Source of the DNA: a virus
Length of the DNA: 64,000 nt
Direction: 5' to 3' (one strand)
Virus record (IMG/VR): IMGVR_UViG_3300021598_001198
Span: 1-64,000 of that record
Position 1 is the stretch's first letter. Each line of letters begins with the position of its first letter. Positions 12,728 through 41,020 of this stretch are shown in pieces. A program made the position numbers and the translations under genes. The notes beneath the pieces were generated by a model. That model did no database searches and was not told the origin of the DNA. It saw only the letters and a list, made by a program, of their open reading frames with translations.

Positions 12728-13060
12728 TTACTTTGTTTTTTTCTCCTCAACCTGACTCTGATTTGAAGATTTTCTGTGACTTCTAACTTTATTTTTTAAA
12801 ACTTTAAGGGTTGAGTGAGCATCGTTTAAATTATCTGATATTATTTTCACTCTACCATTAGTTACTGTTTTTAAACCATCAGGTATAGAATCTTGTAATT
12901 GTCTTAACTCTTTAATGGTTTCAGCGAGTTGAGATTCTAATTCATCCATTTTGAACTGAACCCTGTTGTAGTCATTCCTATTAACTTTAGAAACTTCCTC
13001 AGAAAGAATACCTCTGAGTATACTCAACACGTTACTTTCATTGATTTTGTTTGATTCCAT
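12728..13060 (-). CDS. Coiled-coil protein with cargo-type N-terminal tag
   Basis: 110 aa. N-terminus MESNKINESNVLSILRGILSE|EV: the ES-xxL-xxIL pattern ending in L-S-E resembles the tag seen on the 21-41 kb proteins. Residues 30-60 are heptad-rich (MDELESQLAETIKELRQLQ) and the C-terminus is basic. A late-type motif (13065-13074) stands 4 nt before the ATG. Function unknown. Confidence 0.7.
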   Translation of the reverse strand: MESNKINESNVLSILRGILSEEVSKVNRNDYNRVQFKMDELESQLAETIKELRQLQDSIPDGLKTVTNGRVKIISDNLNDAHSTLKVLKNKVRSHRKSSNQSQVEEKKTK

Positions 13061-13064
13061 ATCC

Positions 13065-13074
13065 TATAAATATC
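13065..13074 (-). promoter_or_regulatory. Late-type motif before 12728-13060
   Basis: GATATTTATA in gene orientation, 4 nt before the ATG. Confidence 0.5.
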
Positions 13075-13086
13075 TTTGTTTAACCG

Positions 13087-13118
13087 TTTGGTATTTTGAT
13101 TTATTTTACTTACCTTTT
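13087..13118 (+). promoter_or_regulatory. Host-type early promoter before GMP-reductase-like gene
   Basis: TTTGG at 13087, TACCTTTT at 13111-13118, 24-nt offset as at the right-block promoters. Confidence 0.65.
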
Positions 13119-13146
13119 TAATAAATAACTAAAAACACAAAAAAAA

Positions 13147-14211
13147 ATGGAACTGTTCGATTTTGACGATTTATTAATTGAACCAACTATAATATCTAGT
13201 ATTCGTTCACGTAGTGAAATTAATTGTAGATTAAAAAATGGTATGTTACCATTAATGACCGCACCAATGGATACGGTTGTTGATAAAAATAATTTTAATT
13301 TATTTAAAAAAGAAGGTATTCTACCGGTACTTCCACGAATCAAAAACCCCGATTCATCGTGGGTGGATTGCGATATTTTCCTCTCTTATAGTATGTCAGA
13401 TTTTGAAAAACTGTTTTTAGAATCAACAAGAACAGAATATTCTGAAGGTCAACCAATGATGGTTCTTATTGATGTTGCTAATGGTCATATGTCGGATTTA
13501 TTAGATATGACATATAGAGCTAAACAAAAGTACAATTCAAACATAAAATTAATGGTTGGTAATGTTGCTAATCCTGAAACTTATTATGAATACGCCAAAG
13601 TTGGTGCGGATTATGTAAGAATTGGTATTGGTAACGGTAATGGGTGTTTAACTACTGTCCAAACAGGTGTTGGTTATCCTATGGCATCTCTGATTTCCGA
13701 ATGTCGTAAAATTAAAAATTTAAGACCATTTGTTTCTAATACTCAGATAGTGGCAGATGGTGGGTTTAAAAAATATTCAGATGTCGTCAAAGCGTTGGCT
13801 CTAGGTGCGGATTTTGTAATGTTAGGTTCCATTTTAAACAAGTGTTTAGAAAGTGCTGGCGAAACAAGTAAAAAAACTGGAACCTCAATGATTAGTGTTT
13901 ATGAAAAAGTAGACCAATATTCAAAAGAAACAAAAGAAATGTTTGACGCAGATATTAGTTTATTTAAAACTTTCAGGGGTATGTCAACCAAAGAAGTCCA
14001 AATGAGTTGGGGGAAGGAAAATCTAACAACTTCGGAAGGCGTTGTGAGAACTCAACAAGTTGAATACACCATTCAAGGGTGGGTTAATAATTTTGAATCT
14101 TACTTGAAATCCGCAATGAGTTATACAGGAAAAAAAGAACTCCACCATTTTATTGGTGGAGTTAAATATAATCACATATCAATGAATGCTTTTAAACGAT
14201 TTGATAAATAG
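13147..14211 (+). CDS. GMP reductase/IMP dehydrogenase family protein
   Basis: 354 aa TIM-barrel enzyme without CBS domains. DVANGH at residue 109, GIGNGNGCLTT with catalytic C167, TGVGYP at 173 and VADGGFKKYSDVVKALALGADFVMLG at 202-227. The 'VANG' and 'TGVGYP' wording is nearer to GMP reductase (GMP to IMP) than to IMP dehydrogenase, but the family assignment is firmer than the choice. It has its own host-type promoter, so early expression in nucleotide supply is likely. Its neighbours include a DUF1599-like and a P-loop kinase gene. Confidence 0.88.
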   Translation: MELFDFDDLLIEPTIISSIRSRSEINCRLKNGMLPLMTAPMDTVVDKNNFNLFKKEGILPVLPRIKNPDSSWVDCDIFLSYSMSDFEKLFLESTRTEYSEGQPMMVLIDVANGHMSDLLDMTYRAKQKYNSNIKLMVGNVANPETYYEYAKVGADYVRIGIGNGNGCLTTVQTGVGYPMASLISECRKIKNLRPFVSNTQIVADGGFKKYSDVVKALALGADFVMLGSILNKCLESAGETSKKTGTSMISVYEKVDQYSKETKEMFDADISLFKTFRGMSTKEVQMSWGKENLTTSEGVVRTQQVEYTIQGWVNNFESYLKSAMSYTGKKELHHFIGGVKYNHISMNAFKRFDK

Positions 14212-14212
14212 G

Positions 14213-14446
14213 TTACTCTACTCTAAATTCTTGGTCTTCACTATGACTAATTGCGTTGTCTCTTTTCATACCCTCTTTAATATAGGTACGTATTAATTTA
14301 GACACACTCATCTTTTTTTTACTTGCAACTTTTTCTATTTCTCTGAAATATGCCGGTACCACTCTAAAGGACAACATCTGAACCAATTGTTTTGATTTTG
14401 GTGCGTCAGGTTTTTTCAATTCTTCGTTAAATTCTGTATTTTCCAT
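14213..14446 (-). CDS. Ribbon-helix-helix-like small protein
   Basis: 77 aa. MLSFRVVPAYFREIEKVASKKKMSVSKLIRTYIKEGM (residues 29-65) matches a ribbon-helix-helix: one strand then two helices, with 'MSVSKLIRTYI' as the second helix. Such proteins bind DNA as dimers and often repress. Convergent with the GMP-reductase-like gene, 1 nt apart. A late-type motif lies 14 nt before the start, so it is probably made late. Confidence 0.7.
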   Translation of the reverse strand: MENTEFNEELKKPDAPKSKQLVQMLSFRVVPAYFREIEKVASKKKMSVSKLIRTYIKEGMKRDNAISHSEDQEFRVE

Positions 14447-14460
14447 CTTTGGGATTTTTA

Positions 14461-14470
14461 TATAAATATT
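14461..14470 (-). promoter_or_regulatory. Late-type motif before the RHH-like gene
   Basis: AATATTTATA, 14 nt before the ATG. Confidence 0.55.
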
Positions 14471-14521
14471 TGGTTTTTCAGGTTTTTTTGTTTATCATTT
14501 AAATAATAAATCAAACGTAAT

Positions 14522-14881: not shown

Positions 14882-14957
14882 TTATTTGAAAATCAATCAC
14901 ATATCAAATAAAACATGTTTAATATGTTGATTGTCAACATTTTGGTTAGATTTGGAG

Positions 14958-14977: not shown

Positions 14978-15000
14978 TAATTTCAAAATAAAAGAATAAA

Positions 15001-18588: not shown

Positions 18589-18598
18589 GTATTTATAT
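18589..18598 (+). promoter_or_regulatory. Late-type motif before 18619
   Basis: GTATTTATAT, 20 nt before the ATG. Confidence 0.55.
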
Positions 18599-18618: not shown

Positions 18619-20214
18619 ATGAGATTCACAGAAATACTGTTTGACACATTATTAGAGGAGGTAAAAAACAAAAAGCTCTTCAACACTCTTATGGATATTT
18701 GGAAAACGGAGAAACCAAATATCACAGATGAAGAAGGTGAAAAACTTTTTTATGAGTTTGCAAGAATACAAGATGGTTTAAGACCTGACCGTCCTCAAGT
18801 GTTTACCTTTTTAAGTAGATACGACGGATTACACGGATACCCAAAATTTGACCCAAACAATATAAAACAAATTGCGAAATATTCGTATTCTCAATTAATG
18901 TTTTTATTGAATGAGTTTAGTAGTGATGCAAGAGAAGTACAAAGAGACGTTTTTACCGGTCCCGATACGAAACCAACTCCTGAAAAAGTTGAAGCATCTA
19001 GAAATCTTTGGTACGGTAACAATAATTTAATTTTTCAAAAAGATGGTCTTAGGGTTTATTCGATAAATAACCAACAAGAGGCAATAAAATGGAGTTATTA
19101 TTATCACACCATTTACGCCAAATCTATGGGCATACCTGAAATGGAAAGGGAAACTCCGTACTACAAAAGTAGTAAATTCTTTCCTTGGTGTGTAACATGG
19201 AGACCCGACACGTATAACAGGTCAAATCAATGGGGAACTTATAGAGGTCAAGGTAGGACGTTTTATTTTGTTATTGATGAAAACAAAAGTGAAACGGATA
19301 TGTACCACATGAGCACTATACAAAGGGACCCAAGTGTTTCTGTAGGTTACAGAATTACCGATATGTTTAATGGTGGAGACAAACCAAAGACCTGGGACGA
19401 AATTACACAAATTTACCCCCAACTTAGTGGTGAGAAGAATTTAATACAAAACAAACCATATTCCACTGAAGAATTATCTATAAAAGATGTTGTTGGTCAA
19501 ATTACCGAAAGAGAAGGTAACCAATATGAATTTAAGAGAATGGATAAATCTTATAAAAAGGCATACATTGATAATGGTGGTACTTTAGCAAAACCTGAAT
19601 CATGGAGGTCAATGGATGAAGAATTACGTAACCTATATATTATTTTTCCAAATGTTAATCAATACAATGTTAAAGAGAGATATGGTAATTTCGATTTCTT
19701 AAGTGAAATCAAAAAAGTAGGTAACCAATTTAATTTATTAGACAGAACTTTAAAAAATAAAGGAATTGGTGATGGTGTAGGTACTATTGTAGATTTCTTA
19801 ATGGCTAATGAATTTAAAATCGCCAGAGTTAGTGGTGATAATAAAAAAATCAGACTATACGAAAGTAAAATTAATGGTAAATCAGGCCTTTTCAATGTTA
19901 CAACTAATTCTTGGATTGAAAAAGATGGTAAAATATATGAACCAAAATATTCACACATCGATACTGAAGTTTATGCCGATAGTGAAGGTAACACATACGT
20001 TGTAGATGTGTATGGTACCAGCACACAACCAGATGATTCTTCTTTTTATTCAGTTTACAGTATTGGAGACGAGAATCCTGAGTACAACGCACACTTCATG
20101 TCGTCAAAACAATTTAAAATATTAATGAAGGAATTGTCGCCCGATGATGGTAGTGAACCCGAAACAGACAAACCGGGTGATTACACGGACATAAAAGAAA
20201 AAAGGGGTTATTAA
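18619..20214 (+). CDS. Large tagged protein with W-C-x-T core
   Basis: 531 aa. The N-terminus MRFTEILFDTLLE|EV fits the cargo tag ending L-x-E. Residues 185-225 (FPWCVTWRPDTYNRSNQWG, then RTFYFVIDENK) share the 'WC-x-(T)W ... YFxI' arrangement with the protein at 25961 (EWCTTWG ... LYILISD), so both may have one catalytic or binding domain. The C-terminal third is beta-rich and ends in an acidic tail. Function unknown. A late-type motif lies 20 nt upstream, and the stop codon lies inside a shared terminator. Confidence 0.8.
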   Translation: MRFTEILFDTLLEEVKNKKLFNTLMDIWKTEKPNITDEEGEKLFYEFARIQDGLRPDRPQVFTFLSRYDGLHGYPKFDPNNIKQIAKYSYSQLMFLLNEFSSDAREVQRDVFTGPDTKPTPEKVEASRNLWYGNNNLIFQKDGLRVYSINNQQEAIKWSYYYHTIYAKSMGIPEMERETPYYKSSKFFPWCVTWRPDTYNRSNQWGTYRGQGRTFYFVIDENKSETDMYHMSTIQRDPSVSVGYRITDMFNGGDKPKTWDEITQIYPQLSGEKNLIQNKPYSTEELSIKDVVGQITEREGNQYEFKRMDKSYKKAYIDNGGTLAKPESWRSMDEELRNLYIIFPNVNQYNVKERYGNFDFLSEIKKVGNQFNLLDRTLKNKGIGDGVGTIVDFLMANEFKIARVSGDNKKIRLYESKINGKSGLFNVTTNSWIEKDGKIYEPKYSHIDTEVYADSEGNTYVVDVYGTSTQPDDSSFYSVYSIGDENPEYNAHFMSSKQFKILMKELSPDDGSEPETDKPGDYTDIKEKRGY

Positions 20215-21128: not shown

Positions 21129-21138
21129 GTATTTATAT
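21129..21138 (+). promoter_or_regulatory. Late-type motif before 21151
   Basis: GTATTTATAT, 12 nt before the ATG; back-to-back with the endolysin motif. Confidence 0.57.
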
Positions 21139-21150: not shown

Positions 21151-21726
21151 ATGAGTAGAAAAATTATAGTTACTGAGTCACAATTAAAACGTCTGTTAGA
21201 TAGAATGATTAACGAATCAACTATGGACGTTGAAGAAAAATTAGATTATGAAAGATTTAGTGGGGGTGATGAGTTACAACAACTGAGAGATACCATCGAC
21301 AATAACATACTTGTAAGTGTGGCATTTGTTAAAAAAGATGGTTCAGTTCGTCACATGTCCATCAAAAAAAGTTTAAGTTCTTATGTTGGAAGTGACAGAG
21401 AAAAAACTGAAAAACAAATGAATGTTGAAATGAATAACAACATTAAAAAAGTTGTTGACGTAAACTCTTATATTAAAAAATTAAAAGAATTAAGAGGTAT
21501 GGGGGTTGATGACGAACAAGCTAAGATGGAAGCGGCAAAAGGAGCTTGGAGAAGTATTAATTTAGAAAATGTTTTAGGTTTTATGGTTAGAGGTAATTTT
21601 ATTGACCTTAGAGATGAAAATGAAATCATGGACCGATTTGGTGAACAAGTATATAATTCATTAACTAAATCGATGAAAAACGCTTTAGCTCAAGACCAAA
21701 TGGTTAATGAACCAGAAGTTGAATAA
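21151..21726 (+). CDS. Tagged putative capsid cargo protein
   Basis: 191 aa. The start at 21151 gives MSRKIIVTESQLKRLLDRMINE|ST, the clearest example of the tag. An upstream in-frame start would translate the promoter-like motif. The rest is charged and helical (LRDTIDNNILVSVAFVKKDG, ELRGMGVDDEQAKMEAAKGAWRSI) with no known family. A late-type motif is 12 nt upstream. It begins a run of tagged genes up to 23.9 kb. Confidence 0.8.
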   Translation: MSRKIIVTESQLKRLLDRMINESTMDVEEKLDYERFSGGDELQQLRDTIDNNILVSVAFVKKDGSVRHMSIKKSLSSYVGSDREKTEKQMNVEMNNNIKKVVDVNSYIKKLKELRGMGVDDEQAKMEAAKGAWRSINLENVLGFMVRGNFIDLRDENEIMDRFGEQVYNSLTKSMKNALAQDQMVNEPEVE

Positions 21727-22092: not shown

Positions 22093-22350
22093 ATGAAAAT
22101 TTTAATATCCGAATCCCAATATAAAAACGTTCTTAAGGAATACTATGAACGAGATAAATTATATCACAGAGAGAGTTTGGTAAAAAGACTTTTGGTAAAA
22201 AACCAAAAAGGTTATTTTGTTGCACCTAAAGAAATTAGGGACATCATTGAAAAATTACCTTATTTAGATTGTTATGACCAACAAGGTAATAAACAAACAT
22301 GTACAAAAATACCTGAAGTTTTATATGTTTACCTAAATGGTAGGTACTAA
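22093..22350 (+). CDS. Small tagged protein
   Basis: 85 aa. Begins MKILISESQYKNVLKEYYERD; the ESQ core and following helix match the tag, though L-x-E is replaced by L-K-E at residues 14-16. The remainder (VAPKEIRDIIEKLPYLDCYDQQGNKQTC) has two cysteines that could form a disulfide. The 119 nt upstream contain a palindromic copy of the late-type motif (GGATATTTATCC, 21975-21986) but rather far away. Confidence 0.75.
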   Translation: MKILISESQYKNVLKEYYERDKLYHRESLVKRLLVKNQKGYFVAPKEIRDIIEKLPYLDCYDQQGNKQTCTKIPEVLYVYLNGRY

Positions 22351-22362: not shown

Positions 22363-22373
22363 GATATTTATAT
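22363..22373 (+). promoter_or_regulatory. Late-type motif before 22390
   Basis: GATATTTATAT, 16 nt before the ATG. Confidence 0.57.
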
Positions 22374-22389: not shown

Positions 22390-22827
22390 ATGGGAAAAAA
22401 TGTTATACTTAGAGAGTCACAATTAAAAAGACTAATTCAATATACAACAAAACAAAAACTAAAAGAAAGTTTAGAAGATATTGAACCGATTGATTACAAT
22501 ATGGGTAAGAGTGATGATGAAAATCAACTACCTAATCCACCAGCTGAAATTAAATTAAATTTAGACGTAGAGGATGGTAAATTTGTTGACTACAACATGG
22601 GCATGAATAGACCCAACCAATTACCAAATCCACCTCAAGAAATTGATGTAGATTTAGAAGAAGATGACTATTCAGATGTACCGGTTGATGCACAAATTGA
22701 TATGGAAACAGGTATGACAATGGAAGATGATTTTATGTTAAACGAAGGACAAAAAAATCTTAAGAAAACATTTAACAAATACATGGGAAATCCCATCATC
22801 GATAGTTTAAGTTCAAAAATAAAATAA
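22390..22827 (+). CDS. Tagged acidic protein with internal repeat
   Basis: 145 aa. Tag MGKNVILRESQLKRLIQ, then two copies of the unit 'DYNMG...NQLPNPPxEI' (residues about 37-55 and 68-84), each followed by an acidic stretch. This suggests a linear motif displayed twice. The C-terminus (LNEGQKNLKKTFNKYMG) is a second helix with L-N-E. A late-type motif is 16 nt upstream; a terminator follows at 22850. Confidence 0.78.
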   Translation: MGKNVILRESQLKRLIQYTTKQKLKESLEDIEPIDYNMGKSDDENQLPNPPAEIKLNLDVEDGKFVDYNMGMNRPNQLPNPPQEIDVDLEEDDYSDVPVDAQIDMETGMTMEDDFMLNEGQKNLKKTFNKYMGNPIIDSLSSKIK

Positions 22828-22894: not shown

Positions 22895-22904
22895 GTATTT
22901 ATAT
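22895..22904 (+). promoter_or_regulatory. Late-type motif before 22908
   Basis: GTATTTATAT, only 3 nt before the ATG. Confidence 0.5.
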
Positions 22905-22907: not shown

Positions 22908-23540
22908 ATGAAATACATTATCACAGAATCTCAATTAAAGAAGATTATAGACAGTGAAATTGATGAGAGGTCGAGAACTCTCGCGAACACTCGTAAAAAA
23001 AGAATATTTCCAAAAAGTGCTTTAATGTCAAATCCCGATAGATTTAAGGAGTACGATAAAGAAGTGAAAAATATTAAAGACATTAAAGAAGAAGACGTTT
23101 CACCGCAGGAACAAGAATTCGATTCTCTTTTAATGTCTGCAGGTGTTATTCTCACACCCGAAGAAAAATCAGAAATCCAACCAAATTGTGAGGAGTATGA
23201 AACTCCTTCACAGTATTCTAAAATTGTTGATGTCATCAAACAAAATTTAGATAAAATGGATAAAAACGGTTTGGTTAACACTTTAAAACAAGTGTTATCA
23301 ATTCAGAAAAAATCTAAATCACCACAACCAACTCAAGAACAACTCGCTCCCGTAATTATTGCAGGAGTATCTGTACCGGGTGTTGCCGTGGTAATTGTTG
23401 CGGGTGTAATAGCATTAATAATTGTTGTCAAATTAGGTAAATTAATTTTTGGAGGTCGTTCAAGAAGTGGTGTAAATCCAGGTTGTAAACGAAGAAGAAA
23501 ATTGGTTAGAAAATTTGGTTTTGATGGAAACTTTATGTAA
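22908..23540 (+). CDS. Tagged protein with one C-terminal membrane segment
   Basis: 210 aa. Tag MKYIITESQLKKIIDSEIDE|RS. Middle region charged, with VVDVIKQNLDKMDKNGLVNTLKQVL-type helices. Residues 156-184 (VPGVAVVIVAGVIALIIVVKLGKLIF) form a membrane helix followed by a very basic tail (GCKRRRKLVRKFG). If ejected with DNA, such a protein could insert in the host membrane. The late-type motif ends only 3 nt before the ATG. 2 nt separate it from the next gene. Confidence 0.8.
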   Translation: MKYIITESQLKKIIDSEIDERSRTLANTRKKRIFPKSALMSNPDRFKEYDKEVKNIKDIKEEDVSPQEQEFDSLLMSAGVILTPEEKSEIQPNCEEYETPSQYSKIVDVIKQNLDKMDKNGLVNTLKQVLSIQKKSKSPQPTQEQLAPVIIAGVSVPGVAVVIVAGVIALIIVVKLGKLIFGGRSRSGVNPGCKRRRKLVRKFGFDGNFM

Positions 23541-23542: not shown

Positions 23543-23896
23543 ATGAAAATACTTTTATCTGAATCCCAATTAAAAAGACTAATCGAATCGGAATTAACCG
23601 AATTTGAAAAATTTGCTGAAACCCGAATGGGTGGTGCAAAAAAAATTAGTGATACCGCAAAAGAAAAAGGTGGTATCTCGTTATTGACGTATCATCACTT
23701 TGTTGTTAAATTACCTTATTACAAAAAAGCATCTGAAGGTAAACTCACCAAAGAAACAATGGAAAAAGAATACAAAAAACTTTTAGAAAAATTATATGAA
23801 TCAACAAAGGATGGTATGAATATTAAACAGATACCATTTCAAGAATTGGTTGGTAAAATTGAAGTATTGGGTGAATTATTAATCAAAGAAAAATAA
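23543..23896 (+). CDS. Tagged small helical protein
   Basis: 117 aa. Tag MKILLSESQLKRLIESELTE|FE. The rest is helical and lysine/glutamate-rich (MEKEYKKLLEKLYESTKDG, VGKIEVLGELLIKEK). No family known. It has no promoter of its own and is read with the membrane-segment protein upstream. The G-rich spacer and hairpin at 23897-23978 follow. Confidence 0.78.
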   Translation: MKILLSESQLKRLIESELTEFEKFAETRMGGAKKISDTAKEKGGISLLTYHHFVVKLPYYKKASEGKLTKETMEKEYKKLLEKLYESTKDGMNIKQIPFQELVGKIEVLGELLIKEK

Positions 23897-23947: not shown

Positions 23948-23978
23948 GGGGGAAGGTTCGCTACTCTTCCCCCTTTTT
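23948..23978 (+). terminator. Terminator after 23543-23896
   Basis: GGGGGAAG / CTTCCCCC stem, then TTTTT. Confidence 0.8.
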
Positions 23979-24573
23979 ATTGTCTTCTCCATTTATTAAA
24001 ATCAAAAGAATCATCTTTCTTTTTTACCGCATAATCATGAATTTGGTCTGCAGTTATTACAACATCTAAATTTCTCTTTTCTTTAACTGATTCTAAATTA
24101 AAAGACCTTTCCCAAAAAGTTGTTACAACTTTGTTTTCTTTAACAATAAAAAACAAAATGTCTCCAACTGATTGTGTTTCAGGGTCCATTAAGTAAAGGT
24201 TTGCGGGATTATCATCCTTTAGTGTGTCTCTTAAAGTTTCGTACTTATCGTCCTTAGAAAAATAGTTTATTCTCTCCGTATTAATATCAACTTTATACAC
24301 AACAATACCCAAATGTAAGTCTATTGGTACATCAACATTCATCACTTCCATAATATTAGCTTCCGCTTCAGATTTTTCCCTTTTAGATAAAACATATGTA
24401 CCCACATCTCTAGTTGATATTCGGTCATTAGTTTTTGTATATTTTCTTACGGTATATTCGGTGGCACCTTTGAATCTTACGTTTATATTTTTTTCATAAT
24501 GGTATGTTGGCATTAGTTCTTCTAATGACTTCTCAACGTATTCTTTTAATATTTTCTTTATGAGTTTTTCCAT
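23977..24573 (-). CDS. Tagged protein of unknown function
   Basis: 198 aa. It starts MEKLIKKILKE|YVEKSLEE, a shorter version of the tag ending L-K-E. The rest is alpha/beta and charged: YTVRKYTKTNDRISTRDVGTY, LHLGIVVYKVDINTERINYF, and a late VVTTFWERSF. No family recognised. It follows the L,D-transpeptidase-like gene by 4 nt on the same strand, so they probably share the promoter near 25199. Confidence 0.72.
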   Translation of the reverse strand: MEKLIKKILKEYVEKSLEELMPTYHYEKNINVRFKGATEYTVRKYTKTNDRISTRDVGTYVLSKREKSEAEANIMEVMNVDVPIDLHLGIVVYKVDINTERINYFSKDDKYETLRDTLKDDNPANLYLMDPETQSVGDILFFIVKENKVVTTFWERSFNLESVKEKRNLDVVITADQIHDYAVKKKDDSFDFNKWRRQ

Positions 24574-24577: not shown

Positions 24578-25168
24578 TTATTTAATGTCTTTTGATTCTA
24601 TAAGAGTGTATGTGAAAGATTTACCGTGTATCGTCGCAGCTTTATTCATGATTTTCATAAAACTATCAAAATCCGCCGACTTTTTAAATACTTGACAACC
24701 TTCTGACCAGTTTTCAACATACGTAGAATCTGCACCTGCTTTGTGAATGTTAATACCAAAAACACCCTCTTGGATTATGTTTTCGTCATATTGCATATCT
24801 TTATCTTTATCACGATAGACCTTTACAGGTTTTTGTTGTTTCAATGCTTCATATTTTCCTTGGTGTAAACCTATTGTGTGTGAACCTCTATATTGACCTG
24901 GTACTAATCTTGCCACCCCCGCGGCATTATGGTACTCCATGACACCCTTTTTACCGGGGTCAGTTGTTGCTGGCCAAATTTGAAATTTCCATTCACCACC
25001 CTCCTTATAAGAGACGGTTAAAAAATCATCAAACACATTCGTTACTTTATCACCCGTACTTGAATTTCTAACACCAACAATGTTGACATCAAAATCTTTA
25101 GTACCCTCAAACCACACGTATCCTTTTGATTTAACGGTTTGTTCAATTTGTTCTCTTTTGTAGCTCAT
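24578..25168 (-). CDS. L,D-transpeptidase-like (YkuD-type site) protein
   Basis: 196 aa. GVFGINIHKAGADSTYVENWSEGCQVF (around residues 135-161) has the order H ... S-x-G-C of YkuD-type L,D-transpeptidases and related wall-modifying phage proteins, with the histidine about 17 residues before the cysteine. No signal peptide and no clear tag. It could cut or cross-link peptidoglycan during entry or lysis. A variant late-type motif (25199-25207) lies 30 nt upstream. Confidence 0.72.
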   Translation of the reverse strand: MSYKREQIEQTVKSKGYVWFEGTKDFDVNIVGVRNSSTGDKVTNVFDDFLTVSYKEGGEWKFQIWPATTDPGKKGVMEYHNAAGVARLVPGQYRGSHTIGLHQGKYEALKQQKPVKVYRDKDKDMQYDENIIQEGVFGINIHKAGADSTYVENWSEGCQVFKKSADFDSFMKIMNKAATIHGKSFTYTLIESKDIK

Positions 25169-25231: not shown

Positions 25232-25241
25232 GTATTTATAG
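25232..25241 (+). promoter_or_regulatory. Late-type motif before 25257
   Basis: GTATTTATAG, 15 nt before the ATG, heading the 25257-29669 unit. Confidence 0.57.
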
Positions 25242-30645: not shown

Positions 30646-31107
30646 TTATATAGAGAAACTACTTACTGTAATGGTATCACAAACGATTTTACCACTCTCA
30701 TCATTTTTCAATGAAATTTGTATAATATCACCAATACCAATATAACCCAAATTCTCATCCTTATCTATTACAACATTATCCCAATTTAGTGGCACAACAA
30801 CGGTTTCATCTACTGAATCATCACTATTTTCAGGGTAGTATTCTATCTCCATTTCTACTTCAGATGGACCAACGATATTATATACGGATACACTTTTAAT
30901 ACCATAACTTCTTCCCTCTAAATCGATGTCAAAATTTACGTTAATATTTAATGGATATACATATTCAATTTCCATACCGTTGTACATTACTTTATAATAA
31001 TCAACGTCGGCTTTACATTCCATTCTATACTTACTATCCATAGAATCTTCGTTTAATCTTCTTGTGAGGTTCTTTAACTGCGTTTCTGTTACTATAATTT
31101 GGGTCAT
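30646..31107 (-). CDS. Tagged small beta-rich protein
   Basis: 153 aa. Tag MTQIIVTETQLKNLTRRLNE|DSM. The body is beta-rich and acidic (YKVMYNGMEIEYVYPLNINVNFD, VEMEIEYYPENSDDS, IGIGDIIQISL), perhaps an immunoglobulin-like or jelly-roll fold. A late-type motif is 12 nt upstream. Function unknown. Confidence 0.78.
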   Translation of the reverse strand: MTQIIVTETQLKNLTRRLNEDSMDSKYRMECKADVDYYKVMYNGMEIEYVYPLNINVNFDIDLEGRSYGIKSVSVYNIVGPSEVEMEIEYYPENSDDSVDETVVVPLNWDNVVIDKDENLGYIGIGDIIQISLKNDESGKIVCDTITVSSFSI

Positions 31108-31119: not shown

Positions 31120-31129
31120 TATAAATATC
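31120..31129 (-). promoter_or_regulatory. Late-type motif before 30646-31107
   Basis: GATATTTATA, 12 nt before the ATG. Confidence 0.55.
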
Positions 31130-32848: not shown

Positions 32849-34141
32849 TTATTTTTGGTTAGGTTGTTTTGGGGTATTTGTAATAGGTTTTGATTTACCG
32901 ACTTCATAGGTGTTAGCCGTTGTTTTTGATGTTGCATTATCAATTTTTACCGTACCTGTGTATTTCACACCTTCGACCGCGTTGTTAAATGCACCCTCAA
33001 TTTTTATACTAGCAGACCTAAATTGTGTCGAACTTACAAGTTGATTTGCTTGATTTGCGTCTTTATAAACATCAGTAAAAAATGCTAATAATCTTTTCTT
33101 GTATTGTTCAACAACAGCATTTTTAATTAATTCATTATATTTGTCATATAATTTTATAACCTCTGGTTCAACATTTTTCCATTTTTGGTATCCACCTTGT
33201 CCATCCACCAACCCTTGGATGTCATTAAACACTGGCATTGTGTTTATCAAATCTAAAAAAGGTTGAGAATTATAGTTTGGTAAAAGTAACTTTCCTGACG
33301 AATCTGTTTTTTTTCTGAAAACCTGAATTTCGTTTTCGGGAATAAAAAATGTATCAAAAAAGTATAACGAATTCGCGATTAATTTTGCAATGTCTTCGTT
33401 AGACCTGTTAAAATATGTACCAATACTAACCATATCACCACTGACGTATTGTTTTAATGTTGGAGAAAGTAACCCACTCTTAGTAATAATGGATGCGGTT
33501 ACCATATTCGATATTAGATTCAACGTTGGTGTGATATTACCAATTTTTGCCGCATTATATACATAACTACCGCTAGCCCTTTTAGTTTGTGACATACCAA
33601 TTGTAATTTTATTTGGTGTTCCTTGAGCTTCTAATAACGCTCTAGATAAGGCTAACAAACCATTACCTGATGCTACTATCCTAATGAGACTCCAAGTATG
33701 TTTACCATCGGGGTCTTTGTATTTAACATTAAATGTTTTTGAACCACTATTAGTTAAAGATTCTACAACAGGTGGGGTACTCGTATCGGGATAACCTTTC
33801 TTTTTAATTGTTTTATCAGGATTTAGTTCATTAGGTATAAATTTTTGTACCATCATCTCAATATAATTCTCACCACCAGCGGGTGATTTTGGTGTTAAAT
33901 TTCTAAATAGACTTAAATTTTTTGTTTCACTAAAAGTTTTACCTATGTTTGGTTGTTCTAAAACCCATCTCCCCCTAAAATTATTATTATCAGCCGGTAG
34001 ACCAGCATCAGTTAAAACCGAAAGTTTTGCAATTGGTGTAGGGTCAGTGGTTCCTTGTATCTCTGAATAATTTTGTTCTAATAAAATATTTTTAACAACC
34101 TCCACTAAGTCCGATTCTGTTAATCGTATTACTTTTCTCAT
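32849..34141 (-). CDS. Large tagged cargo-type protein
   Basis: 430 aa. Tag MRKVIRLTESDLVEVVKNILLE|QN, the 'IRLTESDLV' type shared with the genes at 39052 and 39437. The body is mixed alpha/beta: FRGRWVLEQPNIGKTF, WSLIRIVASGNGLLALSRALLEAQG, SLYFFDTFFIPENEIQVF. No family recognised. Its late-type motif is 18 nt upstream and its terminator is shared with the convergent secreted protein gene. Confidence 0.8.
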   Translation of the reverse strand: MRKVIRLTESDLVEVVKNILLEQNYSEIQGTTDPTPIAKLSVLTDAGLPADNNNFRGRWVLEQPNIGKTFSETKNLSLFRNLTPKSPAGGENYIEMMVQKFIPNELNPDKTIKKKGYPDTSTPPVVESLTNSGSKTFNVKYKDPDGKHTWSLIRIVASGNGLLALSRALLEAQGTPNKITIGMSQTKRASGSYVYNAAKIGNITPTLNLISNMVTASIITKSGLLSPTLKQYVSGDMVSIGTYFNRSNEDIAKLIANSLYFFDTFFIPENEIQVFRKKTDSSGKLLLPNYNSQPFLDLINTMPVFNDIQGLVDGQGGYQKWKNVEPEVIKLYDKYNELIKNAVVEQYKKRLLAFFTDVYKDANQANQLVSSTQFRSASIKIEGAFNNAVEGVKYTGTVKIDNATSKTTANTYEVGKSKPITNTPKQPNQK

Positions 34142-34159: not shown

Positions 34160-34169
34160 TATAAATATC
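34160..34169 (-). promoter_or_regulatory. Late-type motif before 32849-34141
   Basis: GATATTTATA, 18 nt before the ATG. Confidence 0.57.
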
Positions 34170-34868: not shown

Positions 34869-35399
34869 TTATGCAAAAGATTTTTGAATTCTCTGAGATA
34901 AAGCTTCACCAGTGTTAGGTAATCTAAACGCTGTTGAACCCCCCTCATAAATTATATTTCCATCAACAGTTCCTGCAATATTAACCGCCCTTGCATTTAA
35001 TTTACCACTATGAAGTGCTTTTGACACTGCTAAATTATCAGTGAAAAGTGTTGCGGGTTGAAGTCCATTTTGAAATAGTGCGGTTTTACTCACAAGATAT
35101 CCTATTGACAAAAGGAATGAACCACTTGGAGATACTTTAAATTTACTTCCTTTTGGGATAATAATTACAAAACTGTCGTCTCCCGACCCACCAGCCACAT
35201 AAGTCGCCTGAGTTCCATCCTCAATTCCCATTTTTGCTTTTGAAGTAAAATTAAGATTTGAGTCGGATTGTTTAATCCAAGCGGGGTCTTGTCCACCTTG
35301 TTCGTTAATTAAATTACTTGCGGCGTTATATCCATTTGATTGGTGCATTTCAAGAATTTGTTTTTTCTCCTCTTCTGAAACTCTAAAATTTTTATACAT
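34869..35399 (-). CDS. Tagged small protein
   Basis: 176 aa. N-terminus MYKNFRVSEEEKKQILEMHQ, then AASNLINE|QGGQ: a 'SEEEK-x-x-I' tag variant with the I-N-E site at residue 32. The mature part is small-residue-rich and beta-like (MGIEDGTQATYVAGGSGDDSF, VVIIIPKGSKFKVSPSG), suggesting a compact binding domain. A late-type motif is 16 nt upstream. No family recognised. Confidence 0.77.
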   Translation of the reverse strand: MYKNFRVSEEEKKQILEMHQSNGYNAASNLINEQGGQDPAWIKQSDSNLNFTSKAKMGIEDGTQATYVAGGSGDDSFVIIIPKGSKFKVSPSGSFLLSIGYLVSKTALFQNGLQPATLFTDNLAVSKALHSGKLNARAVNIAGTVDGNIIYEGGSTAFRLPNTGEALSQRIQKSFA

Positions 35400-35415: not shown

Positions 35416-35425
35416 AATAAATATT
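35416..35425 (-). promoter_or_regulatory. Late-type motif before 34869-35399
   Basis: AATATTTATT, 16 nt before the ATG. Confidence 0.5.
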
Positions 35426-35632: not shown

Positions 35633-36784
35633 TTAAGGTTGTTTCAAAATAAAATATGAAAAGTCACCTTTATTCCACGCATCTGGTGCGAATGATGATG
35701 TTTCAAATTGTTTAATTGAATTAAAACCACTTCTTGATGCTGCACTCGCGATTTCGGGTGATGTGTTAATTATGTGCCACAGTTGTACGTCATGGTAACT
35801 TTTTCCAAATGATGTTTTACTTTGTGGTTTGAGGAATTTACCTAATAATTTAATTTCTTCTTCTTTTGTGAATTTTACACCCGAATCTTTTAAATATTTT
35901 ACAAAAGAGTCCATCTTCACCGCTCTTGGGTCTAAACGAGTTAAATCTAAAGTTCTACCCAAATTAACATACATAGGTTGAACAGCGTTTGGATTATTTG
36001 ACGCATAGTTTTTTGTAACATATTTTTTACTAGGACTAACATAGAAAAAATTATCTTTCTTAGGTCCCGCCCTAAACACTTTAACCATATTACTACCAAC
36101 TTTTTTGGTATTACCGGTTGTTCTTCTTAAAGTATTGATGAATTGAGTCTGATTTATTTTATTAGTCAATAGTGCTGATACCAAGTTATCATACTTCTCA
36201 ATACCAAAAAGTTTTACATAATCGGGTTTTAATGTCCCGATTTCGGCTTGAATTGGTGCTAATGCTGATGTAAATTGATTTGTTGATTTTTTGATTAGAT
36301 GTTTAGTTTTCTCAACAATTTTATTTATAGCATAATCGTTGTATCGTGATTTTTTTAATTGTATTCTAAATTCCGATTCACCTTGCATCATCTCTGGTCT
36401 AAATTTTTCTAAAAACGTTTTGTTCTTCACTAAAGAATTTGCGGAAATATCCACTAGATTTGGATAAACTTTCGGGGATTTTAAAATAAAAAGTTCAAAC
36501 TGACCTTTCAATTTTGGTGTATATCTATTAGACTCAATTAATTTTGCGAAATCGTCTACTGTTTTAACACCAACTAAATTAAATTTCCCATACATGACGG
36601 GGTCCTTGAATACGTTTTGAATTTCTGATGAAATCGTTTTATTTGTTCTTAATAGTTTCGCGAAATCTTTTGCGGATTTATAACCACCCATAAAATACCT
36701 CAATAGGTTCTCATTCAATTCACTTTCTTGTGATATTGATTGATTAAGTTTTATGAATTGTGATTCTGAAATAATTATTTTCAT
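35633..36784 (-). CDS. Tagged ADP-ribosyltransferase-like protein
   Basis: 383 aa. Tag MKIIISESQFIKLNQSISQESELNE|NL. The C-terminal about 160 residues fit the ART plan of phage toxins: KVFRAGPKKDNFFYVSPSKKYVTKNYA (arginine motif, then serine strand and helix), TSFGKSYHDVQLWHII, and the closing RSGFNSIKQFE with KGDFSYFIL. The central domain is helical. T4 packages an ART (Alt) in its head the same way, so a comparable host-modifying role is plausible. The catalytic glutamate is not certain by eye. Confidence 0.65.
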   Translation of the reverse strand: MKIIISESQFIKLNQSISQESELNENLLRYFMGGYKSAKDFAKLLRTNKTISSEIQNVFKDPVMYGKFNLVGVKTVDDFAKLIESNRYTPKLKGQFELFILKSPKVYPNLVDISANSLVKNKTFLEKFRPEMMQGESEFRIQLKKSRYNDYAINKIVEKTKHLIKKSTNQFTSALAPIQAEIGTLKPDYVKLFGIEKYDNLVSALLTNKINQTQFINTLRRTTGNTKKVGSNMVKVFRAGPKKDNFFYVSPSKKYVTKNYASNNPNAVQPMYVNLGRTLDLTRLDPRAVKMDSFVKYLKDSGVKFTKEEEIKLLGKFLKPQSKTSFGKSYHDVQLWHIINTSPEIASAASRSGFNSIKQFETSSFAPDAWNKGDFSYFILKQP

Positions 36785-36790: not shown

Positions 36791-36798
36791 ATAAATAG
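36791..36798 (-). promoter_or_regulatory. Late-type motif before the ART-like gene
   Basis: CTATTTAT, 6 nt before the ATG; a weaker copy. Confidence 0.42.
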
Positions 36799-36838: not shown

Positions 36839-37501
36839 TTATTTTTCTTCGTCGAGTCCCAACATGTGGAGACCCTTATCGAATATGTCACCATATTCAG
36901 ATTTACAATCTTTATACATCGCCAAATCTTTCGGTGGCATTTTTTCCATGGTATCAGGACCCCAAACACCATCCACAGGATAAACACCAAGTTTTTCTTG
37001 GTATTTTGCAATGGCTTGAGCTGATTTTGAATTAGGTAATCTACCAATAGAACCATCAATCTTTAGTGGTTGACCGGCATCATCTTTAATACCTTTCTTA
37101 TTTAAGAAACATTGGATAGCTCGATTAATATTATAGTTTACCTCATCTTCATTTAATTCATGATTAGATTCATCCAAATCATCATCTCTCATTCTATCGT
37201 CATCATCACCATAATCTTTATGGTCACCATGTCTCTCATTCCAATAGAATCCAGCATAATACGCATCGATTTCCTCGGGGGTTAAATCTTCGGAATATTC
37301 AGGATGGTTTTTATGTGGGTTGGTTCCACGGCTATACCAACTATCAGCACTACCTCTATCAAAGGGACTACCGTGGTGACTTGGATAGGTTTTACCGTTA
37401 AATTCTTGAGTTTCACCAGTAGGTTCATCCATGGATTCATTAATGAAACCCATGATGTTTTTAATACGGTTAATCTCTTCGTTTAATGTTTTTGGTTTCA
37501 T
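36839..37501 (-). CDS. Tagged peptidoglycan-binding protein
   Basis: 220 aa. N-terminus MKPKTLNEEINRIKNIMGFINE|SM, with the I-N-E site at residue 22. Residues 30-120 are acidic and low-complexity (GDHKDYGDDDDRMRDDDLDE). Residues 125-205 contain INRAIQCFLNKKG, IDGSIGRLPNSKSAQAIAKYQ and YPVDGVWGPDTMEK, a PG_binding_1-type wall-binding domain. The late-type promoter of this unit is upstream of the overlapping gene at 37498. Confidence 0.8.
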   Translation of the reverse strand: MKPKTLNEEINRIKNIMGFINESMDEPTGETQEFNGKTYPSHHGSPFDRGSADSWYSRGTNPHKNHPEYSEDLTPEEIDAYYAGFYWNERHGDHKDYGDDDDRMRDDDLDESNHELNEDEVNYNINRAIQCFLNKKGIKDDAGQPLKIDGSIGRLPNSKSAQAIAKYQEKLGVYPVDGVWGPDTMEKMPPKDLAMYKDCKSEYGDIFDKGLHMLGLDEEK

Positions 37502-37824
37502 ATTTTTGAGTTTTCTTTAATAACTTTTTTAATCACCTTAATCAGTTCTGATTCGTTTAATTTAATAACCTTTTTCTTACTACTGTTTTTTGAGTTTTCA
37601 TTTAAACTGAAACCACCGAATTTGTATTTTGAATCAAGGGACGCTCTGACATCACTACCAAAACCTTTTTGACCCAACGCATGTAACATATCATCAATTT
37701 CACCCATTAAACCCATTTCCTCGTTTGCAACATACCCTTCTGAACTACCGTCTGCATCCGCACGATTTTCCATGTAATCATATAGTCTTGTCAATAAATC
37801 AATTAATTCAATTTTGTTTGCCAT
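37498..37824 (-). CDS. Small protein with the tag at its C-terminus
   Basis: 108 aa. The body (ELIDLLTRLYDYMENRADADG, EIDDMLHALGQKGFG) is helical and unrecognised. Its last 25 residues, KKKVIKLNESELIKVIKKVIKE|NSKI, are a near-copy of the tag that other genes carry at the start (compare 39052-39330). The late-type motif is 18 nt upstream. It overlaps the peptidoglycan-binding gene by 4 nt. Confidence 0.8.
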   Translation of the reverse strand: MANKIELIDLLTRLYDYMENRADADGSSEGYVANEEMGLMGEIDDMLHALGQKGFGSDVRASLDSKYKFGGFSLNENSKNSSKKKVIKLNESELIKVIKKVIKENSKI

Positions 37825-37842: not shown

Positions 37843-37852
37843 TATAAATATT
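37843..37852 (-). promoter_or_regulatory. Late-type motif before 37498-37824
   Basis: AATATTTATA, 18 nt before the ATG. Confidence 0.55.
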
Positions 37853-38411
37853 AGTTTACCATTAATATGTTTGACTTGGTTTTGAATAATTTGGAACCAG
37901 TCTTTAATAAATCGTTTGATAGACGAGGGGTAACAGTAACAATGAATTTATTTGTTTTATTTGTAAACTGTTTAAGTTTTTGAATCACCTCAGAATTTTC
38001 ACTTATGGTGGTGTAAACAACAAATGAGTTATCGATTATTTCATATGTGGGTTTAAACGTTGAGAAATTAAATAAACCACTACCACTTCCATCTTGTTCT
38101 TCGGTTGTGAAAGTATGAACAACCTGTCCGTTTTCGGTAATGATATCCATTCTTTCAATTAGGTTTATGATTGTCTTTTGGTTTGCGGTTTGACTTATTT
38201 TAGATAAATCCTCACCGGTTGAACTTTTAATTTGTACACCTAATTTCAAATCACCACCACTATATGGGTTTGGTGCAATAAATGGTGTAATCTCAGCGTT
38301 TTCCGCCCACTCTAAAAATGGTGTGTTTTCTTCAGGTGTTGAAGTTGGTTGTTCGTACAAACCTCTTATGTGTTTTCTGTCCCCTTCGGATATGATAATT
38401 CTTTGTCCCAT
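37851..38411 (-). CDS. Tagged protein, 'QRIIISE' type A
   Basis: 186 aa. The start at 38411 gives MGQRIIISEGDRKHIRGLYE|QP. The longer frame would translate through the late-type motif (38415-38424). The mature part is beta-rich: DLKLGVQIKSSTGEDLSK, NGQVVHTFTTEEQDGSGSGLF, KFIVTVTPRLSN. The tag is nearly the same as in the upstream neighbour, so the two are paralogous at the N-terminus only. The promoter-like motif is only 3 nt before the ATG. Confidence 0.78.
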   Translation of the reverse strand: MGQRIIISEGDRKHIRGLYEQPTSTPEENTPFLEWAENAEITPFIAPNPYSGGDLKLGVQIKSSTGEDLSKISQTANQKTIINLIERMDIITENGQVVHTFTTEEQDGSGSGLFNFSTFKPTYEIIDNSFVVYTTISENSEVIQKLKQFTNKTNKFIVTVTPRLSNDLLKTGSKLFKTKSNILMVN

Positions 38412-38414: not shown

Positions 38415-38424
38415 TATAAATATT
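38415..38424 (-). promoter_or_regulatory. Late-type motif before 37851-38411
   Basis: AATATTTATA, 3 nt before the chosen ATG; decides that start. Confidence 0.5.
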
Positions 38425-38901
38425 TTAAGAACACATTGGTATTTGTTTAATACCGGCACTTCCAAATATGTCCGATATGATGGAGGTTAATAACGCTCCG
38501 TTTTGTTTGGTTCTAATGTGGGCATATAATTTGTCCACCATTTCTTTTGAGACACTTACGTTACCACCAATTAGTTTCATTAAAAGTGGCATACCACCTG
38601 TTTTTTGTTGTTTCCAAGTATCGTAAACATACTTAATAGACTCACCTTCACTCATACCATTATCTGCCGCCATTCTTGCAACCAAATCGTCCACCAAACC
38701 AAAAGTCGGTTGGAGTTGATTGTCCAATGATTGACACAGTTTTGACCTCTCAATGTTTTCCATTAAAGATGTCATGGATTCAATCATATTGTGTACGGTG
38801 TCCTTATATGTGAAGAAATTAAATGGTTTACTACTGGTTTGTTCGTATAAACCTTTTATACGGTTTTTATCTTCTTCTGATATGATAATTCTTTGTCCCA
38901 T
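38425..38901 (-). CDS. Tagged protein, 'QRIIISE' type B
   Basis: 158 aa. MGQRIIISEEDKNRIKGLYE|QT shares 15 of its first 21 residues with its neighbour, but the body is different: helical with three cysteines (LCQSLDNQLQPTFGLVDDL, YVDTW-type motif, ISDIFGSAGIKQIPMC). The same tag on unrelated bodies shows it is a detachable module. A weaker late-type motif (38906-38913) precedes it. Confidence 0.78.
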   Translation of the reverse strand: MGQRIIISEEDKNRIKGLYEQTSSKPFNFFTYKDTVHNMIESMTSLMENIERSKLCQSLDNQLQPTFGLVDDLVARMAADNGMSEGESIKYVYDTWKQQKTGGMPLLMKLIGGNVSVSKEMVDKLYAHIRTKQNGALLTSIISDIFGSAGIKQIPMCS

Positions 38902-38905
38902 GTTT

Positions 38906-38913
38906 ACAAATAG
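38906..38913 (-). promoter_or_regulatory. Weak late-type motif before 38425-38901
   Basis: CTATTTGT, one change from the consensus. Confidence 0.35.
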
Positions 38914-38916
38914 TTT

Positions 38917-39039: not shown

Positions 39040-39051
39040 GATTATTTCTTT

Positions 39052-39330
39052 TTAATCTTGACCCATTTCTTCATCTTTATTCAAGATGATACTTTCAAGA
39101 CGTTCACAAAACATTTTCAAAAACATATTCTTAATAGACCCTTTTTGTTCAGGTCCGGCAAATCTTGAATATTCGTTCATTAACATTTGTGAAACTTTAG
39201 ATGCGGCTTCTTCTGCTGCCATCATGGCGTAAGTTCCTGGTAACATGGATTCAGAAAGATTCGATTCTTTAATAACCTTTTTTATCACCTTTATCAATTC
39301 GGCTTCGGTTAATTTTATACTTTTTTTCAT
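39052..39330 (-). CDS. Small tagged protein, 'IKLTEAELIKV' type
   Basis: 92 aa. The start at 39330 gives MKKSIKLTEAELIKVIKKVIKE|SN. The longer frame would add six residues from the spacer. The mature part (MMAAEEAASKVSQMLMNEYSRF) is helical and small. Its tag is almost identical to the C-terminal segment of the protein at 37498. A late-type motif is 16 nt upstream. Function unknown. Confidence 0.77.
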   Translation of the reverse strand: MKKSIKLTEAELIKVIKKVIKESNLSESMLPGTYAMMAAEEAASKVSQMLMNEYSRFAGPEQKGSIKNMFLKMFCERLESIILNKDEEMGQD

Positions 39331-39346
39331 ATTAATCTTTATTTCC

Positions 39347-39356
39347 AATAAATATT
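39347..39356 (-). promoter_or_regulatory. Late-type motif before 39052-39330
   Basis: AATATTTATT, 16 nt before the ATG. Confidence 0.5.
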
Positions 39357-39414
39357 ACGTTTTAAGAAAATTCCCGGTTCCGGCGTACGAGGTTCATAAT
39401 TTCTGACTGATTAT

Positions 39415-39425
39415 GATATTTATAT
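39415..39425 (+). promoter_or_regulatory. Late-type motif before 39437
   Basis: GATATTTATAT, 11 nt before the ATG. Confidence 0.57.
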
Positions 39426-39436
39426 AGAAAAAAAAC

Positions 39437-41020
39437 ATGGGAAAAGTAATAAGACTCACTGAGTCGGATTTAGTTAATATTGTCGAATCAGTTATCAACG
39501 AACAGAAAACCTATGTCACCAATTATGATGGTAAGTACGATTACATGAAAGATGGTGACAACTACTATTATAAATTAAAAAACCAAAAAACATATAGATT
39601 AGCCACCGGTACGGGAAAAGAAGCAATCAAAACAAAAGTATTCGGTTCAACAAAACCGGTGGAACCTGTGAAGAAATTTACGGGTTTAAATACGGGTAGA
39701 CTTGGTCAACAAGGAGGTTATGCTGGATATCAAGACAATCTACAAACCAAACCAATTGTTGTAAATCCAGTTGATAAACAAAAATCAGAATTGGAAAAGA
39801 AATCCGAAACTGTAGGTACAAAATATAACTATACCCCAAGAATCGATGCTGAATTAACATACATTGAAAAAAGAAAATTAAACGACAAACCGTTTTTCGT
39901 TTACGACCCAAAGTACAATTTGATATATCTTTTTGATACAGGTAGTAAATACGTACTTCACACCCAAGTTGTTGATGGTGCTAATGAACAAAAATCAATA
40001 TCAGATAGTAAAAGTTATACTCACGCGGATTGGTGTAAAAATAGTCCGGTACCCGGTGATGACGCAAAAGGTCAAAAATTAGAAGCGTCTCCTCGTCTTT
40101 GTACCGCAAGTAATTTTACAACAAAAGAATCCTGTGTAAAAGACTCAAGAAGAAGATGGGATGAGTCATCAAAAATATGTATAGCCGATGCTGCTTATTT
40201 TGTTGTTGACCACTACAAAGAACGTTTTTTAGCAAAGGGCATTTATAACATATCAAGTTTAGGTAGTAATACGGGATATACTGGTAAAGGTAAAAATGTA
40301 TTCAATTTGAAAGACCAAGGGGGTAAACAAATGGCTGCCGCGATTCACGGTATTCCCAATATTGAAGGGAGACTAACAGCCAGTGAAGATTTAAGAAACG
40401 TATTAAAAGCCGACTTATCTGCGGGTAAGGTACCAAAAGAATATTTGAACTCAATTAAATTAATCGCAAATGCGAATCAAAGTTATGGATGTGTTGGGGT
40501 TCCCGCTAAATTCATTGAAGACCCAAGGGTTCAAAAATTAGCCAAAGGTGCAAGAGTATTTGCAATGGGTGATAAAGGAACAAGTTATCTCGTTCAAAAC
40601 GCACCAACATATTTCGAACAATTGGGTGGTGATGGTGAAGTTTGTAAAAGTCCTATGATGTTAGCCCAACAATTGAGTGGAAATGATGAAACTTCAACCA
40701 TGGCTGAAAGTATTATTAGTGAATCTATCAAAAAGGTATTATCCAATGTACTATCAAACTTTAAAGCCGAAGCAAATGTTGAGGATGATATGGTAATGCA
40801 ATTCCGTGTTAAAGGTCTTAGTTATATAGACGGAGAAGTTGGTATGACCATAGAAGACCCAACCACTAAAAAAGATTTAATTGTTTGGAATTTCCAAGGA
40901 CCAATCCGAGATAGTCAAACCAACAAAGTTGTATATAAGAGGTCGGTCTTTAAAAATATCAATAAGAACAATTACGAACAGATTGCAAGGACATATAAAA
41001 TTCAGATGGTATCAACCTAA
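39437..41020 (+). CDS. Large tagged protein with L,D-transpeptidase-like domain
   Basis: 527 aa. Tag MGKVIRLTESDLVNIVESVINE|QK. Residues 150-390 resemble a YkuD domain: FFVYDPKYNLIYLFDTGSKYV, AAIHGIPNIEGRL (catalytic histidine) and ANANQSYGCVGVPAKFIED with S-x-G-C. Residues about 425-445 (AESIISESIKKVLSNVLSNF) look like a second tag-like helix before a C-terminal beta domain. A wall-modifying enzyme carried in the virion would help DNA entry. Late-type motif 11 nt upstream. Confidence 0.75.
   Translation: MGKVIRLTESDLVNIVESVINEQKTYVTNYDGKYDYMKDGDNYYYKLKNQKTYRLATGTGKEAIKTKVFGSTKPVEPVKKFTGLNTGRLGQQGGYAGYQDNLQTKPIVVNPVDKQKSELEKKSETVGTKYNYTPRIDAELTYIEKRKLNDKPFFVYDPKYNLIYLFDTGSKYVLHTQVVDGANEQKSISDSKSYTHADWCKNSPVPGDDAKGQKLEASPRLCTASNFTTKESCVKDSRRRWDESSKICIADAAYFVVDHYKERFLAKGIYNISSLGSNTGYTGKGKNVFNLKDQGGKQMAAAIHGIPNIEGRLTASEDLRNVLKADLSAGKVPKEYLNSIKLIANANQSYGCVGVPAKFIEDPRVQKLAKGARVFAMGDKGTSYLVQNAPTYFEQLGGDGEVCKSPMMLAQQLSGNDETSTMAESIISESIKKVLSNVLSNFKAEANVEDDMVMQFRVKGLSYIDGEVGMTIEDPTTKKDLIVWNFQGPIRDSQTNKVVYKRSVFKNINKNNYEQIARTYKIQMVST

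Follow-up and report, generated by a model that had tools for sequence, protein, structure and literature searches.

Short N-terminal leaders shared by twenty otherwise unrelated proteins of a large T4-type phage, and their probable role in capsid targeting

The first 64,000 bases of the 156,672-base virus record IMGVR_UViG_3300021598_001198, here called the window (G+C content 33%), encode between positions 12728 and 41020 a set of twenty proteins that begin with related short segments, termed leaders, followed by bodies that differ from one protein to the next. All twenty open reading frames (ORFs) listed in an earlier sequence-only reading of this DNA are present at or near the expected positions, with tagged starts at the ATG codons of 21151, 38411 (−) and 39330 (−) rather than those of longer TTG ORFs; every leader, of about 11–33 residues, ends in (L/I)-x-E (20/20), where that reading had described the ending as frequent, and, as it claimed, the bodies are unrelated except for one weak pair (18619/25961, E 9e-4), the only pair below 0.001 when the twenty are compared, with the next at 0.02. 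The phage is T4-type, its host is probably a member of the Bacteroidetes, and further tagged proteins are located beyond this interval. A longer record of the same phage, G001 (288,260 bases), spans the 156-kb record with three segments at 99.97–100% identity, short indels near window positions 6023 and 43400 aside.

Writing the assigned cut as a slash, and the position of an upstream TATTTAT heptamer where one occurs, the forward strand encodes tagged proteins of 531 amino acids (aa) (18619–20214; leader 1–13, LLE/E; TATTTAT 18590–18596), 191 aa (21151–21726; leader 1–22, INE/S; TATTTAT 21130–21136), 85 aa (22093–22350; leader 1–16, LKE/Y; no TATTTAT within 50 nucleotides), 145 aa (22390–22827; leader 1–26, LKE/S; TATTTAT 22365–22371), 210 aa (22908–23540; leader 1–20, IDE/R; TATTTAT 22896–22902), 117 aa (23543–23896; leader 1–20, LTE/F; directly after 22908), 235 aa (25257–25964; leader 1–21, ISE/N; TATTTAT 25233–25239), 605 aa (25961–27778; leader 1–13, ILE/A; overlapping the end of 25257, with a family in 19 loci), 534 aa (27775–29379; leader 1–13, ILE/A; overlapping the end of 25961, with a family in 30 loci) and 527 aa (39437–41020; leader 1–22, INE/Q; TATTTAT 39417–39423). 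The reverse strand encodes those of 110 aa (12728–13060; leader 1–21, LSE/E; TATTTAT 13066–13072), 198 aa (23977–24573; leader about 1–11, LKE/Y; following 24578–25168, whose gene has the heptamer), 153 aa (30646–31107; leader 1–20, LNE/D; TATTTAT 31121–31127), 430 aa (32849–34141; leader 1–22, LLE/Q; TATTTAT 34161–34167), 176 aa (34869–35399; leader 1–33, INE/Q, or 1–17, ILE/M; TATTTAT 35417–35423), 383 aa (35633–36784; leader 1–25, LNE/N; TATTTAT 36791–36797), 220 aa (36839–37501; leader 1–22, INE/S; overlapping the end of 37498–37824, whose gene has the heptamer), 186 aa (37851–38411; leader 1–20, LYE/Q; TATTTAT 38416–38422), 158 aa (38425–38901; leader 1–20, LYE/Q; no TATTTAT within 50 nucleotides) and 92 aa (39052–39330; leader 1–22, IKE/S; TATTTAT 39348–39354). 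One further reverse-strand protein of 108 aa (37498–37824; TATTTAT 37844–37850) carries its tag at the C-terminus, at residues 84–105.

The end motif separates tagged from untagged proteins of the longer record: the P1 glutamate of an [ILV]xE site lies at residues 11–33 in 20/20 of the former versus 98/280 of the latter (p 2.7e-9), and at least two such sites lie at residues 5–33 in 20/20 versus 35/280 (p 7e-17), a test that partly restates the motif, since in the KIIxTESQ class one site of the pair belongs to the shared motif itself. In the cuts as assigned, leucine occupies P3 in 11 cases and isoleucine in 9, and 13/20 have Q, S, A or N at P1′; over the 14 residues that precede the cut (or fewer in shorter leaders), the helical hydrophobic moment exceeds the median of 500 shuffles in all twenty. 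Among the 241 proteins encoded by the 156-kb record, 12 match the regular expression [ILVM].[ILVM][ST]E within residues 2–20, and 10 of these are on the earlier list (1000 shuffles: mean 2.3, maximum 9; internal windows: 10/1878); in G1, the set that includes the window's leaders, 14/344 match (shuffles: mean 3.4, maximum 9). G4, a distant relative with another leader class, gives 6/375, not above shuffles (mean 3.3, maximum 12).

Other searches for shared starts are less specific. De novo expectation–maximisation motif finding on the N-termini of the 288-kb record returned an uninformative best motif (score 471 versus 357–427 in five shuffled sets) and was replaced by regular-expression, pairwise and profile tests, and a hand-written 22-residue tag consensus found nothing in phage records by tblastn. 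At a pairwise score of at least 38, N-terminal pairs number 40 in G1, 22 in T4 and 14 in Mel-JY01, which has small groups of 3–4 shared starts; pairs between protein middles number 23, 5 and 3, and shuffled sequences give 2, 1 and 3, respectively. The raw count being this unspecific, cluster make-up alone was used. The method does recover the leader of the known IPII/IPIII pair among the T4 clusters, the largest of which are homing-endonuclease-like paralogs. Those paralogs, by which the T4 N-terminal counts are also raised, lend some credit to an account of the shared starts as ordinary similarity, the product of N-terminal domain shuffling or duplication, or of selection on the mRNA start, with no role in targeting; the codons at the shared serine, all TCN (8/8), likewise hint at common descent of that leader class. 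The codons for the other shared leader residues vary, however, which places conservation at the protein level, and an mRNA-level cause was set aside on this ground; internal copies of the leaders are few, and different leaders swap on the same body with the joint motif retained, as described below. Ordinary similarity is judged very improbable.

Leader exchange emerges from comparison of the window's proteins with their orthologs in relatives (13 families, 68 distinct pairs). An [ILV]xE site coincides with the joint in 54 pairs, is 1–5 residues off in 12 and is missing in 2, against 22% of random positions with a site within 6 residues, most of the 68 pairs being plain inheritance, so that their kept site proves little. 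The two without a site are a spurious alignment left in the count (L073, 24% identity) and the L007 ortholog of 23543, with aspartate for glutamate. More telling is the subset of 23 pairs, from 8 families, with leader identity below 40% and body identity of at least 35%: the site is kept in 23/23. Exchange is clear for 21151 (other leaders in the L011 and L131 orthologs), 22093, 23543 (L017 and the phage immuto), 27775 and 39052 (L013); outside the identity filter it also occurs in 22908 (L013), 25257 (L129 and L007) and, probably, 36839. The 27775 family, whose 30 loci include copies of the same phage and in which one start, that of L019, is ambiguous, has several unrelated leader forms, 13–28 residues long and all with [ILV]xE at their end, beside a body that begins with a mostly kept A-S-K-K-x-I-L stretch. 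In the 27775 structure model, residues 1–14, drawn as a helix, have a predicted local distance difference test (pLDDT) score below 50, which may partly stem from poor alignment of the leader, and confidence climbs past the joint. Relatives of 35633, 39437 and 32849 in viral contigs, in a search reaching close relatives only, are just copies of the same phage; orthologs of 32849 in L007 and L009 were found in the ortholog comparison.

A gp21-like protease, which the sequence-only reading had suggested seeking in the rest of the genome, is encoded in G001, where the gene order runs T4-type terminase (E 4.5e-8), Portal_T4 (E 6.6e-76), ribosomal protein bS21 on the reverse strand, Peptidase_S77 prohead protease of gp21 type (E 2.3e-22; T4, as positive control, E 4e-113), an acidic scaffold candidate that gave no match in a family search, and Gp23, the protease thus lying near both portal and capsid genes. 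The S77 search of the 156-kb record gave no match, most simply because that record is a fragment; of 14 related records searched, drawn from the 30 loci of the 27775 family, 9 have S77 and 9 have Gp23 above cut-off, and the five without S77 measure 81–233 kb and may be fragments. The N-terminal propeptide of Gp23 is strongly kept in nine records, ending in LINE/A or LINE/S in 8 and in LLTE/A in 1, and that of immuto ends in VSE/A; the window phage's own capsid propeptide ends in LINE/S, with a candidate cut, by motif, after residue 60. These ends are of the same kind as the leader ends. According to a published account, T4 gp21 cuts after L/I-X-E, releasing propeptides of 10–19 residues from internal proteins and of 65 from gp23, and Alt and gp21 are processed at their C-termini too (PMC9026906).

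The reading of the leaders as capsid-targeting signals, advanced from the sequence before any searches, has accordingly gained support from the S77 protease, the capsid propeptide motif, the leader swaps with a kept joint and an upstream element that tagged and head genes have in common (below). It is likely that the leaders are capsid-targeting propeptides and that the tagged set is packed in the head, cut by the protease and ejected with the DNA. Under such a scheme the tagged proteins would be made late in infection along with the head proteins; the amphipathic leader would bind the prohead core, enclosing the protein; the gp21-type protease would cut after (L/I)-x-E, freeing the mature protein within the head; and the mature cargo would enter the next host with the DNA, where it may serve in host take-over. 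Docking to some other virion part was the alternative raised alongside the original suggestion; the leader helix would then attach its protein to the neck, tail, baseplate or outside of the capsid, and the proteins would lie outside the head interior. This alternative is weakened, and now seems unlikely: docking by itself would not require the [ILV]xE ending that the leaders have in common with the capsid propeptide, and the number and variety of bodies would fit cargo better than structural parts, although the upstream element is common to tail-side genes too and some tagged or C-terminally tagged genes are located on the genome's head/tail side.

That element, TATTTAT, occurs within 50 nucleotides upstream of 13/20 tagged genes, 24/93 head/tail-side genes and 13/183 genes of the DNA-metabolism region, where its reverse complement precedes 10/183. 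Its head/tail-side bearers include the terminase, portal, protease and scaffold candidate genes, and also the sheath and tube genes, identified by eye. Five other tagged genes (23543, 25961, 27775, 23977 and 36839) come straight after, or overlap, a gene or series of genes with the element and would be read in operons with element-bearing genes, leaving 22093 and 38425 with neither. The host-type (Bacteroidetes) promoter consensus TTTG-N17-24-TAnnTTTG precedes 0/20 tagged genes, 1/93 head/tail-side genes and 23/183 genes of the DNA-metabolism region. As a separate observation, window positions 42500–61400 contain about 18 or more blocks of the form TTGGC...TTTGG...TTATATTTGTAT, mostly right before short genes and fitting a Bacteroidetes-type host promoter, as well as hairpin-plus-T repeats resembling terminators.

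Several observations weigh against capsid targeting. The [ILV]xE motif is common, as the 98/280 untagged proteins attest; cut positions were assigned by the analyst, several leaders offering a choice of two or three sites. Over the 68 ortholog pairs, mean identity is the same for the leader and for the first 40 body residues (54% each), and leaders being on average as similar as body starts, exchange is a minority pattern. The scaffold candidate being without a family match, the binding partner is a guess. TATTTAT was chosen on the same genes, in G1; its tests elsewhere, on tagged sets defined by regular expression, are uneven (G7 p 6e-6, G4 p 9e-4, G5 p 0.035); the capsid gene itself, which follows the scaffold gene, lacks it; and the absence of the host-type promoter from tagged genes (0/20 versus 23/183) is not significant alone (p 0.14). 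Some tagged-looking proteins of the phages G5 and G7 have, by eye, no nearby cut site, and some are paralogs. Leaders without an obvious cut site would suit an address to a site in the infected cell, such as a replication body, membrane or assembly site, for proteins that never enter the virion; such an address does not predict a kept [ILV]xE joint or an element shared with head genes, signal-peptide-like starts cluster separately from the leaders, and the proposal is judged very unlikely.

Beyond the window's phage, a leader profile built from 15 window leaders (threshold 8 bits) matches 70 of 1650 N-termini in five phages (G1, G4, G5, G7 and the cultured Flavobacterium phage vB_FspM_immuto), 15 of the matches being its own seeds, against 3.4 per shuffled set, 2/1008 C-termini and 1/1008 mid-regions; the matches fall 17 to G1 (15 seeds), 6 to G4, 26 to G5, 20 to G7 and 1 to immuto. 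The main class of G4 is MKxxIKxLLRE, with about 14 members, counted by eye, in a cluster of 16 proteins, and G5 and G7 have clusters of 40 and 33 linked N-termini, some links being chance or paralogs. In T4, Mel-JY01, S-SCSM1 and RM378, the top five clusters of each phage contain no comparable leader set. Two Mel-JY01 proteins, at 60276 and 62056 (L166 276 and 2056), begin with a short leader (LLQE and LVTE, respectively) followed by a common ISDRVWHxT stretch, and are perhaps, judged by eye, packaged ADP-ribosyltransferase-like proteins.

Tags also occur at C-termini. The class NEEIxRIKxIMG, by a regular expression written after the G1 examples were seen, occurs in G4, G5 and G7 together in the first 35 residues 7 times, in the last 32 residues 7 times and elsewhere once, a C-terminal excess with p about 3e-5 if the cases are independent, though two of the seven are paralogs of each other in G7, and a G5 case and a G7 case are relatives of the same G1 protein. 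G1 itself has 2 N-terminal, 3 C-terminal and 0 other occurrences, immuto 2, 0 and 1, and T4, Mel-JY01, S-SCSM1 and RM378 together 0, 0 and 1. The tag of 37498–37824, which has 82% identity with the N-terminal end of 39052 across 22 residues, is the sole C-terminal case of the other main class found by regular expression in the five phages. Together, these patterns could reflect a general address code for head-loaded effectors, in which interchangeable unrelated tags, amphipathic helices with a protease site on each side and usable at either protein end, move between cargo genes, giving each virion a fast-changing set of some 20 to 40 injected proteins; this extension is put forward tentatively, as a serious possibility.

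Among the closest known systems is that of T4, where IPI, IPII, IPIII and Alt likewise carry a short N-terminal leader ending in (L/I)-x-E on otherwise different proteins, together with a gp21-type protease and a gp23-type capsid protein with the same motif; the likeness to the T4 leader (MKTYQEFIAE) is one of layout, and sequence homology is not claimed. In the respects testable from sequence, the present system appears to work like T4 capsid targeting and to differ in scale (some twenty or more proteins here, about four in T4), in leader length (about 11–33 versus 7–19 residues), in its several interchangeable leader classes of different sequence in one genome, in its usually paired sites (at least two [ILV]xE per leader) and in one leader class that occurs at either protein end. 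The giant phage SPN3US likewise has numerous proteins inside its head, of which some are presumed to be ejected, and its prohead protease gp245 has nine substrates with N-terminal propeptides of 20 to 254 residues; the accessible part of that source makes no mention of a shared short tag (PMC10052503). The Bacteroidetes phages that encode bS21 (Chen et al. 2022, PMC9723584) have large genomes, structural genes co-expressed late and a reverse-strand bS21 gene inside the head module, a layout that G001 follows; the accessible part of that source makes no mention of tagged proteins. In G001 the bS21 gene (28096–28296 (−), equivalent to L058 8096–8296; Ribosomal_S21, PF01165, E 6e-11) lies between portal and protease. 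Immuto has a T4-type head module with prohead protease and small groups of proteins with shared starts, like the window's phage, and differs in having leader sequences of its own, for example four proteins starting like MENFDLKKFLVENKLT, with the single profile match given above.

Literature searches limited to open-licence papers found no description of such tags in Bacteroidetes phages. Should the capsid-targeting reading be correct, the leader would offer a ready signature for reading injected proteins from the genome sequences of one group of large Bacteroidetes phages, in which nearly all the proteins in question are still unnamed; twenty or more genes per genome would become candidate effectors of host takeover or counter-defence, and the interchangeable tags could be used for loading foreign proteins into phage heads.

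Nearly all tagged bodies are without a named family, and the indications of function are slight. The model of 27775 gave nothing at E 0.001 or better against the PDB; by VIA-align its residues 112–312 match mostly acetyltransferases, with Z up to 7.4, under the safe level, which is suggestive only of an acetyltransferase-like fold, and against viral models its best named matches are PcfJ-like proteins. A possible ADP-ribosyltransferase domain, T4 Alt-like, in 35633 is no more than hinted at by a match to ART-PolyVal below the cut-off (E 0.09), with no convincing match to PDB sequences and a model (pLDDT 43) too poor for structure search. In 39437 an L,D-transpeptidase-like motif is seen by eye only, with no convincing family or PDB match. 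A peptidoglycan-binding domain in 36839 scores 22.6 bits against a cut-off of 23, and peptidoglycan binding is also found in the tagged protein L002 11114–12442. At the end of G001, the frame 287840–288259 (L071 7840–8259), which reaches the record end, has a leader-like start (LKE/D) followed by a hydrophobic stretch that gave no match in a Pfam search of the frame and that recalls, by eye, polymorphic-toxin linker domains.

Outside the tagged set, no Rfam families were found in 12–42 kb of the window. At 107949–124367 (L062–L063) of G001, 5472 codons form one uninterrupted reading frame that is rich in internal repeats and may encode a tail fibre; the 156-kb record ends within this frame, and the closing 1.5 kb of that record aligns to it repeatedly, at ~70–77%. 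On the reverse strand of the window, 3674–4903 encodes a protein of the RuBisCO large-chain family (PF00016, E 1.1e-31), which sits in a cluster with glycosyltransferase-, nucleotidyltransferase- and cupin-like genes, recognised by eye, and is probably a RuBisCO-like protein with a different role.

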